A DNA stretch of 38,077 nt from Actinomycetota bacterium (GTDB lineage Bacteria > Actinomycetota > Actinomycetes > Actinomycetales > Microbacteriaceae): positions 1-38,077 of the forward strand of contig JAAFHU010000004.1 of the NCBI GenBank assembly GCA_013297645.1. Direction: 5' to 3'. The position numbers were made by a program, and so were the translations under genes. Below, piece after piece: positions 6,990 through 9,432 of the stretch (position 1 is the first letter of the stretch; each line of letters starts with the position of its first letter). The notes under the pieces are model-generated. The model worked only from the letters and a program-made list of their open reading frames with translations. It was not told the DNA's origin and ran no database searches.

Positions 6990-7415
6990 ATGAGATCTCT
7001 GCGAGCAGCGGCGGTGGGCATGGTGGCATTGGTACTGCTCTCGGGCTGCTCTGTCGTTCAGCGGACCGCGATCCGTCTCAATGATGACGGCACTCTGGAT
7101 TTCGGGTCGTGCGAGACCCTTTCAAGCATCTCGACTGTGACGGCCAACTACGTGGCCGAGTCTGGAGAACAATTCCCGATAACCGTGGATGAAGCACCCG
7201 ATTCTGTGCTGGAGGGAACCGTCATCCATCTCGGAGCGCCGCCAGCGGCAGTTAGATGGGATTCCGTCAGCGTCGATATCAGCGACGACAGCGAGCAGTT
7301 CGTCCTGAGTGGGGACTCGTACCGCGAGGACTTGACCGTCGGGGAGTGGCGCTGGGCGCAGTCCGGCATCTTCATCGGCACCGTCGATGTAACTGGGTGT
7401 GACTTAGACGGCTAG
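6990..7415 (+). CDS. Small lipoprotein, 141 aa
   Basis: This is a secreted lipoprotein. A basic N-terminus (MRSLR), a hydrophobic core and the lipobox LLSGC place the acylated cysteine at residue 20. The mature part of about 120 residues is acidic and beta-rich, with two further Cys (GSCETLSS near 40 and TGCDLDG at the extreme C-terminus) that may form a disulfide. No family is recognised. It is followed at 54 bases by a separately promoted membrane protein gene. Start and export signal are clear; function is unknown. Confidence 0.8.
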   Translation: MRSLRAAAVGMVALVLLSGCSVVQRTAIRLNDDGTLDFGSCETLSSISTVTANYVAESGEQFPITVDEAPDSVLEGTVIHLGAPPAAVRWDSVSVDISDDSEQFVLSGDSYREDLTVGEWRWAQSGIFIGTVDVTGCDLDG

Positions 7416-7457: not shown

Positions 7458-7463
7458 TACCGT
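7458..7463 (+). promoter_or_regulatory. -10 element, leaderless promoter of the membrane-protein pair
   Basis: TACCGT ends 6 bases before the ATG at 7470. It would drive both paralogous genes, which overlap by 4 bases. Confidence 0.5.
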
Positions 7464-7469
7464 CGAGGC

Positions 7470-8009
7470 ATGCGCAAACATCTGCCCTTGGTCCTTTGTG
7501 CGACTGGAGCACTTGCGATCCTTGCGGCATACCTGGGCCTGGCCAATCTCATCCGGTTTCGCACCATCCTCGTGCTGGGACTCAGTTCGGCCGACTGGCT
7601 GATCCTGCTGGCATTCGCCAGCCTGATCTCGGTGCTCACCGGACTCGGCGTTTCCGGTGCGCGACTCGCCACCACGAGGCCGGTGCTCTCGTTTCTGTGC
7701 GGCGTCGTCGTCTTCGCGGGTGCACTTCTGGTGTGCGGTGCGGGCTACCTGGCGTGGGTCTTCTCGGGGGTCCACGATCGCAGTGAGGCCGTGCTGGCCG
7801 ACGGGCGCTCCATTGTCGTCACCCAGGAATGCTGGCACCACTGCAGAATCAGCATCAGTCAGCGCAGCGGCATGTACGTGGACCCAATGGGCGCGTCGAC
7901 GGTCGCTGACTGGCACGTCGACGTCGCCGAAACGGTGACCGTCGAGGGCGACGTACTCACCCTCTGGGTGGGCTCAGGCGATTCACTGACCGTGAGGCTG
8001 CGCCGATGA
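7470..8009 (+). CDS. Hypothetical membrane protein, paralogue A of a tandem pair
   Basis: This is a 179-residue protein with three predicted membrane helices in the first 100 residues (LVLCATGALAILAAYLGLA; SADWLILLAFASLISVLTGLG; VLSFLCGVVVFAGALLVCGAGYLAWV). An approximately 75-residue C-terminal domain follows. The C-terminal domain starts with EAVLADGRSIVV, contains CWHHC, and ends GDSLTVRLRR. The same order (three helices, then 'DGRSIVV', then 'sLTVxLR') occurs in the next gene, so the two arose by tandem duplication. The stop overlaps the next start (ATGA), implying translational coupling. No known family is recognised. Confidence 0.75.
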   Translation: MRKHLPLVLCATGALAILAAYLGLANLIRFRTILVLGLSSADWLILLAFASLISVLTGLGVSGARLATTRPVLSFLCGVVVFAGALLVCGAGYLAWVFSGVHDRSEAVLADGRSIVVTQECWHHCRISISQRSGMYVDPMGASTVADWHVDVAETVTVEGDVLTLWVGSGDSLTVRLRR

Positions 8010-8560
8010 GGCGCTGGAGGCTTCCTATCGGGCTGGTGGCAGCCGGGGCCGTGGTGAGCGTCATGGTCAGCCGACTGCCGCAGTGGTGGGTGCAGGTTCG
8101 CCAGTTCTATGTGCTCGGGTTCACTCCCCGCGATGTCTACTACCTGCTCTTCTTCGTGGGGCCGCTAGCGATTCTCGTTGGGCTTTTCATAGCGACACGG
8201 AGGTTGGCAAGCGACCAGCGCACGCGATCCGGTGCCGTGCCGCTGGGCATCCTCACGTTTGCCGGCGGGGCCGTCTTCTGCTTCTACGGAGTGATCTGCC
8301 TGATATTTGCGCAAATCGACGATCTAACCGAGGTCGCGCTCGACGACGGCCGGTCGATCGTGGTCTCGGAGTCGTCATGGCGCGACTGCGAGGTCTACGT
8401 GCATCAGCGTGACGGAATCTACGTCGACATTCCTCTGGGCTCGGGAGACAACGGGCTGCCGTGCGGCGCCTTCTCGAAAGGTGACTACACCGTCGAGCAG
8501 CACGGCGACGAGGTAACGCTGCGAGCGGGCGATGAGTCGCTGACCGTGACGCTGCGCTAA
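8006..8560 (+). CDS. Hypothetical membrane protein, paralogue B of a tandem pair
   Basis: This 184-residue protein overlaps the previous gene by four bases. It has three membrane segments (LPIGLVAAGAVVSVMVS; DVYYLLFFVGPLAILVGLFIA; AVPLGILTFAGGAVFCFYGVICLIFAQI) and a C-terminal domain that parallels paralogue A: EVALDDGRSIVVSESSWRDCEVYVHQRDGIYVD, ending ESLTVTLR. In the domain core, A reads 'CWHHCRISISQRSGMYVD' and B reads 'SWRDCEVYVHQRDGIYVD', so one of the two Cys is lost in B. A perfect 10-bp hairpin right after the stop ends the unit. Function is unknown; the pair may form a hetero-oligomer. Confidence 0.75.
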   Translation: MRRWRLPIGLVAAGAVVSVMVSRLPQWWVQVRQFYVLGFTPRDVYYLLFFVGPLAILVGLFIATRRLASDQRTRSGAVPLGILTFAGGAVFCFYGVICLIFAQIDDLTEVALDDGRSIVVSESSWRDCEVYVHQRDGIYVDIPLGSGDNGLPCGAFSKGDYTVEQHGDEVTLRAGDESLTVTLR

Positions 8561-8563
8561 CGC

Positions 8564-8595
8564 GAAACGGCGCCCGCCGAAGCGAGCGCCGTTTC
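8564..8595 (+). terminator. Bidirectional terminator hairpin
   Basis: GAAACGGCGC pairs perfectly with GCGCCGTTTC (10 bp) around a 12-base loop. It lies between the convergent genes ending at 8560 and 8610. The T-rich arms (TTTC on either strand) provide short U runs in both directions. Confidence 0.75.
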
Positions 8596-8609: not shown

Positions 8610-9392
8610 CTACGGAGCCGGCGTCTCCTCGACGGCGGGTGCGTCGAAGCCGCACTGCTCGGTCTCCTGCTCGACCTGCAGCGTCAGACGCTCCTTGCCC
8701 GCAGCGTGCGCGTCGGCGACGGTGCCCGAGTAGATGGTGTTGTCCTTCGACTCGAGGTTGACGGCCGACGCCTCGTCGCAGAGGTGGAAGACCTTGCCCG
8801 ACTTGGTCCAGTAGACGAGGTTCTCACCGGTGATCTGGGTGACCTGATCGGCCTCGGTCGTGTACTGCTCGACCGACGGCGAGCTGAGCGAGGTGCTGGT
8901 GTATCCGGCAACGAGCAGGAGCACGATGCCGACGGCGCCGGCGATGCCCTTCTGCTTGCCGTCCATGTCCTTGTTGAGGAAGATCAGCACGATCAGCGGA
9001 ACGAAGGCGATGATCGTGATGATGGCGCCGAGCTGGTTCTGCACGAAGAAGGCGAACTTGTTCTCCTTCGATGCGGGGTCGAGGCGGTTGGCCTGCTTCC
9101 ACAGCTGGCCGCCGAAGAAGGTGAGCAGGCCGATGGCCACGAGGATGCCGAGCAGCAGGATCCACGCCCAGGTCGGGAAGGCGCCGTTCTCCATCGGGCG
9201 GCGCAGCACCCAGAAGATCGCGAAAGCCTCGCCGCCGATGGCGACCAGCCACAGGATAATGGCGAGCACGCGCTTGCCGGTGGCCGAACCCTTGGCCTCG
9301 GCGGTCGGCTTCCAGGTGGAGGACTTCTCCTCGGCCTTGGCGGCCTCGGTGTGCTCCACCCGTACGGTCTTCTTCTTGCCTGTCTCTGCCAC
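8610..9392 (-). CDS. Hypothetical polytopic membrane protein, 260 aa
   Basis: Residues 1-45 form a charged cytoplasmic tail (Lys/Glu-rich, KTVRVEHTEAAKAEEKSS). Four predicted helices follow: RVLAIILWLVAIGGEAFAIFW, WAWILLLGILVAIGLLTFFG, QLGAIITIIAFVPLIVLIFL and GIAGAVGIVLLLVAGYT. A roughly 90-residue external C-terminal domain contains two Cys (HLCDEASAV and EQCGFDAP). The ORF track begins at an upstream ATG (9431), but that ATG lies inside a TATGCT -10 element. The GTG at 9392 has AAGGGGAC about 6 bases upstream and is preferred. No named family is recognised. It is transcribed divergently from add. Confidence 0.78.
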   Translation of the reverse strand: MAETGKKKTVRVEHTEAAKAEEKSSTWKPTAEAKGSATGKRVLAIILWLVAIGGEAFAIFWVLRRPMENGAFPTWAWILLLGILVAIGLLTFFGGQLWKQANRLDPASKENKFAFFVQNQLGAIITIIAFVPLIVLIFLNKDMDGKQKGIAGAVGIVLLLVAGYTSTSLSSPSVEQYTTEADQVTQITGENLVYWTKSGKVFHLCDEASAVNLESKDNTIYSGTVADAHAAGKERLTLQVEQETEQCGFDAPAVEETPAP

Positions 9393-9426
9393 GCTGTCGT
9401 CCCCTTGGTAAGTCGATTTACGCATG

Positions 9427-9432
9427 AGCATA
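9427..9432 (-). promoter_or_regulatory. -10 element of the 260-aa membrane protein gene
   Basis: TATGCT on the minus strand predicts a start near 9420 and a leader of about 28 bases carrying AAGGGGAC before the GTG at 9392. It is the leadered partner in a divergent pair whose other member (add) is leaderless. Confidence 0.4.

Follow-up and report, generated by a model that had tools for sequence, protein, structure and literature searches.

Two overlapping genes (termed here A and B) encode small membrane proteins of the same plan, and they raise the question of whether they form an isolated pair or belong to a wider family, and what such a family might do. A sequence-only reading had proposed that they are duplicated, translationally coupled partners in a hetero-oligomer. 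The genes lie in the window, i.e., the whole analysed stretch of 38,077 nucleotides at the start of contig JAAFHU010000004.1 (Microbacteriaceae), the source assembly of which is 83% complete. It is highly probable that A and B are a duplicate and members of one family, and anything beyond a real tandem duplicate in this family we infer. As an event in evolution, the tandem pair is ordinary: modestly interesting and not surprising.

A and B are full-length paralogs

Both open reading frames were present where the earlier reading had placed them (Table 1), and the third-position GC content of A (GC3, 0.78) supports coding. The ATGA overlap permits translational coupling, as had been proposed, and a GAGG sequence read 8 nt 5' of the ATG of B is a possible Shine-Dalgarno element. 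BLASTP aligned A and B end to end with 65 of 191 positions identical (34%, E 1e-27), in agreement with the same plan and the same order of motifs in the two proteins. With both proteins rich in hydrophobic residues, their likeness could have been an artefact of membrane composition or of a short shared motif. Smith-Waterman scores were compared with those of 2000 shuffles: the full-length score was 231 (shuffles 32.6 ± 5.4), the helical half scored 98 (31.3 ± 5.9), and the C-terminal half scored 133 (25.6 ± 4.8), and none of the 2000 shuffles scored as high in any comparison. The similarity thus extends beyond the motif and beyond hydrophobic composition, since each half exceeds its shuffles; together with the full-length alignment this refutes the artefact, which retains a negligible probability, and bears out the duplication.

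Table 1. Features of the A/B locus, numbered by position in the window.
Feature	Position	Strand	Description
Lipoprotein gene	6990..7415	+	141 aa; ends 54 bp before A
Gene A	7470..8009	+	179 aa; three predicted membrane helices, then a predicted external beta domain; DGRSIVV aa 111-117, CWHHC aa 121-125, QRSGMYVD
External domain of A	7767..8000	+	A2 profile E 4e-20, with A in the profile
ATGA overlap	8006..8009	+	A stop TGA 8007-8009; B start ATG 8006
Gene B	8006..8560	+	184 aa; DGRSIVV aa 114-120, SWRDC aa 124-128
External domain of B	8315..8545	+	A2 profile E 1.1e-20, with B in the profile
Inverted repeat	8565..8594	.	9-bp perfect repeat, AAACGGCGC / GCGCCGTTT, 12-nt loop; between the convergent B and 8610-9431
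Convergent gene	8610-9431	-	273 aa membrane protein, unrelated to A/B

Predicted architecture

Three hydrophobic segments were predicted in A, B, and nearly all family members read. AlphaFold modeling of B predicted helices at residues 5-28, 41-67, and 74-102 with moderate confidence, followed by seven strands (106-111, 117-123, 129-134, 139-143, 162-166, 169-174, and 177-182), and the model of an Agromyces relative showed the same order of three helices and seven strands. The pLDDT values of the two models were moderate to low (64.6 and 56.9, respectively) owing to the small alignments behind them, of six and five sequences. Helix 2 carries a G-x-x-x-P-like motif, seen as VxxGDWVPT in the GCR clade described below (clade 1), VLGFTPRDV in B, and VLGLSSADW in A, which precedes the beta domain and is part of the common plan of the family. 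In A and B, as in the family, arginines are concentrated at the N-terminus and in the loop between helices 2 and 3. The positive-inside rule relates such charged residues to the cytoplasmic side of membrane proteins, and on the strength of these arginines both of those regions would lie inside and the beta domain outside.

Searches of named families

The earlier reading had recognised no family, and this held in the libraries searched: neither Pfam nor NCBIfam gave a match to A or B above the curated cut-offs, the PHROGs and PADLOC scans gave no accepted match for the pair, and a plasmid search gave no match. Searches of the PDB by fold gave nothing below E 0.07 with the model of B or 0.4 with that of the Agromyces relative, none of it significant, and the PDB search by sequence gave no accepted match. 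The histone-methyltransferase KMT5A appeared weakly in the latter at E 0.008 with B alone; this was judged to be a chance match because it weakened to E 0.65 with a profile and was absent with the domain profile. No confident match to a characterised family was thus accepted in any of these libraries, and a literature search for this protein family found nothing.

A and B belong to a sparse actinobacterial family

A search for single-copy homologues, proposed earlier, revealed a thinly distributed Microbacteriaceae family, its members mostly single copy. B alone matched three weak but genuine relatives (L005, L006, and L007; E 5e-6 to 6e-4) among 400 Microbacteriaceae genomes, plus one false match; the matches were read one by one, because a search of 400 genomes is expected to give a false match at E near 1e-3. 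Pairwise E values of 3e-8 and 4e-8 also support the match to the relatives. A five-sequence profile reached a further protein (P0009, E 1.9e-7), and a search with the latter gave a well-supported set of about ten members (E to 1e-38) that links back to L007. In the genome-contig search, B alone gave no match and the alignment of its relatives gave five loci. The matches L008, L012-L015, L027, and L030 were read and discarded as false. A degraded member with an in-frame stop (L057/L024, genome G202) is a probable pseudogene.

The domain profile A2, built from the external domain only of 14 sequences including A and B, found this domain in 17 of 300 Microbacteriaceae genomes. It also reached one more family in the order and further families in the class (1e-10 to 8e-17), and a smaller sample of the phylum gave no domain match outside the class. 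The A2 scores of A and B (Table 1) are circular since the profile holds both, and their independent links to the family are the single-sequence and earlier-profile matches. The C-terminal domain of A and B starts with G-[RC]-x-x-V-[VA], as in the family, and DGRSIVV is a local version of this wider domain, so that the view of the motif as peculiar to the pair was not supported. These matches show that A and B belong to a sparse actinobacterial family of three helices and a C-terminal beta domain, one which the searched curated libraries do not name and whose external domain is thinly spread through one actinobacterial class.

Two clades were recognised, one starting with GCRxVVRE and having a conserved Cys pair (clade 1), and the other with the pattern GRxxVVxE...YERxG, holding A and B (clade 2). 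A tree of 23 members placed A and B as sisters (support 99/98), both within a YERxG clade of nine members (94/90); its terminal branches were long, and many forks remained open. The sister relationship shows A and B, by sequence and as far as sampled, to be a lineage-specific tandem duplicate. The other YERxG members (L005, L006, L007, L029, the L059 pair, and L061, all from Microbacteriaceae) share the helical plan of A and B, the GRxxVVxE start without the GC cysteine, and a (Y/H/S)xxRxG centre; they are 20-36% identical to A and B, differ in the absence of WxxC, and only L059 is also a tandem. The latter is an overlapping pair (374-1096 and 1078-1902) in another genus of Microbacteriaceae (G121), and the tree does not place it as sister to A/B. 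The clade 1 members from Agromyces seonyuensis (NZ_WSTA01000035.1, L074), Mycetocola zhadangensis (L075), Rathayibacter spp. (L076 and L078), and Agromyces agglutinans (L077) are about 20-25% identical to B and resemble A and B in the three helices, the helix 2 motif, and an external beta domain whose strands follow one another as in the pair. They differ in the GCRxVVRE start, in a Cys pair about 75-80 residues apart, and in being single copy.

Cysteines of the external domain

Each external domain of the pair has two cysteines, at different positions: C121 and C125 in A (C121-W-H-H-C125), and C128 (S124-W-R-D-C128) and C153 in B. The statement that A loses or B gains one cysteine at the centre was reversed, the extra central cysteine being that of A (CWHHC vs. 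SWRDC), and the weight placed on this difference was not sustained, as neither W-x-x-C nor C-W-x-x-C is conserved among the relatives. In clade 1 a cysteine lies in the first strand and a second about 75-80 residues on, a pair that likely forms an external disulphide. A and B have neither the Cys after the first G nor the second near the C-terminus, and clade 2 as a whole is without this pair. One MAFFT alignment placed C128 of B opposite the clade 1 GC cysteine; this register was rejected, since the YERxG intermediates favour another, as do most subsets of the sequences.

DUF2975 and HTH_26 genes adjoin several relatives

In four genomes (G174, G206, G049, and G119; loci L036, L038, L039, and L040, with L076 and L078), genes for DUF2975 and the HTH_26 regulator precede a clade 1 member, either immediately or with a short gap between; a fifth relative (G401; L066, with only DUF2975 seen) adjoins a DUF2975 gene. 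Pfam scans of three DUF2975 genes and one HTH_26 gene were all above cut-off, and the remaining ones, identified by reading the sequence or a shifted-frame trace, are less certain. Like the family, DUF2975 (PF11188) is a small multi-helix membrane protein, and the helices of L059a matched it weakly, below threshold (E 5e-4, 20.3 bits vs. a cut-off of 27). Its Pfam model is without the external beta domain and did not match A or B, either of which would have needed at least 27 bits (no match at E up to 5).

These neighbours hint at envelope sensing in the relatives. They also raise the alternative that the family consists of accessory subunits of a DUF2975 + HTH_26 sensor-regulator module, from which A/B would be a detached, duplicated branch. 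This is unlikely for the family as a whole: DUF2975 is itself a domain of unknown function, named once each in two papers, the members of G247, G197, G151, and G041 have no DUF2975 or HTH_26 neighbours, and A/B are likewise without an adjacent gene of either kind, their neighbours being a lipoprotein gene and a convergent membrane-protein gene. The family has no conserved gene neighbourhood. The family-level DUF2975/HTH_26 link is a more useful lead than the pair itself, and DUF2975 and the external domain are testable together because the two are linked in some genomes.

Possible mode of action of the pair

Through coupled translation, a single mRNA would yield A and B in roughly equal amounts, and the two might enter the same membrane assembly, in which two diverged subunits would have replaced ancestral identical ones. 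The external domain could sense or buffer an envelope condition or a small ligand and pass the signal through the helices to a partner, which in some relatives would likely be the membrane protein DUF2975 together with the HTH_26 regulator. The shared assembly, the sensing, and the signal passage are the most tentative of these steps. As a whole (duplicate family, coupled translation, shared assembly, and envelope sensing), this is the best explanation, with a probability somewhat short of even.

Co-directional genes in actinobacteria very often overlap by ATGA. With most relatives single copy, coupling alone is weak evidence for a hetero-oligomer, and the A/B hetero-oligomer read from the gene overlap is a reasonable proposal but less likely than not. 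Equally tenable is that A and B work separately, as homo-oligomers or monomers differing, for example, in ligand preference, with the overlap reflecting genome packing: relatives mostly function without a partner copy, and the external domains of A and B now differ in the length of their loops and in where their cysteines lie, but the overlap couples their expression, and at least one other genome has gained an overlapping pair. Envelope sensing or modulation by A/B is, if anything, rather unlikely taken by itself. It is improbable that A/B form an obligate two-subunit envelope sensor with two ligand faces, acting via a DUF2975-type partner, in which repeated duplication (here and in G121) turned a homo-oligomer into a hetero-oligomer. 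Still less probable is a role in immunity or self-protection, e.g., against a bacteriocin or phage; the sparse distribution and the small polytopic form would resemble those of accessory immunity proteins, but there was no defence-family match, no PHROGs match of note, and no toxin-like gene recognised beside the pair.

Neighbouring genes and signals

A and B were absent from all five congeners searched, as was the convergent gene, and the three congener adenosine deaminase loci examined were without any neighbour of the A/B pair, so that they offered no empty site for comparison. In Pfam, the convergent gene stayed below cut-off (DUF4131, 25.5 bits vs. 31.6). The lipoprotein gene upstream, possibly on the same transcript as A, likewise had no Pfam match above cut-off; its product carries the motif R-L-N-x-(D/N)-G-x-(L/V)-D-(F/Y)-x-S-C and is rare, with matches in four other Microbacteriaceae genomes, one of them strong. 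It was rejected as a conserved partner of A/B, its relatives being without an A/B-like gene within 1.5 kb. Third-position GC is lower in the lipoprotein gene, A, and B (0.71-0.80) than in most neighbours (mostly 0.81-0.97), which suggests weaker codon selection or a more recent arrival of the segment 6990-8560.

The inverted repeat downstream of B is a probable terminator shared by B and the convergent gene, which the terminator scan missed because its loop limit was 8. Leaderless actinobacterial promoters have TANNNT shortly before the ATG, and at 7458-7469 a TACCGT followed by 6 nt precedes the ATG of A as a candidate leaderless promoter.
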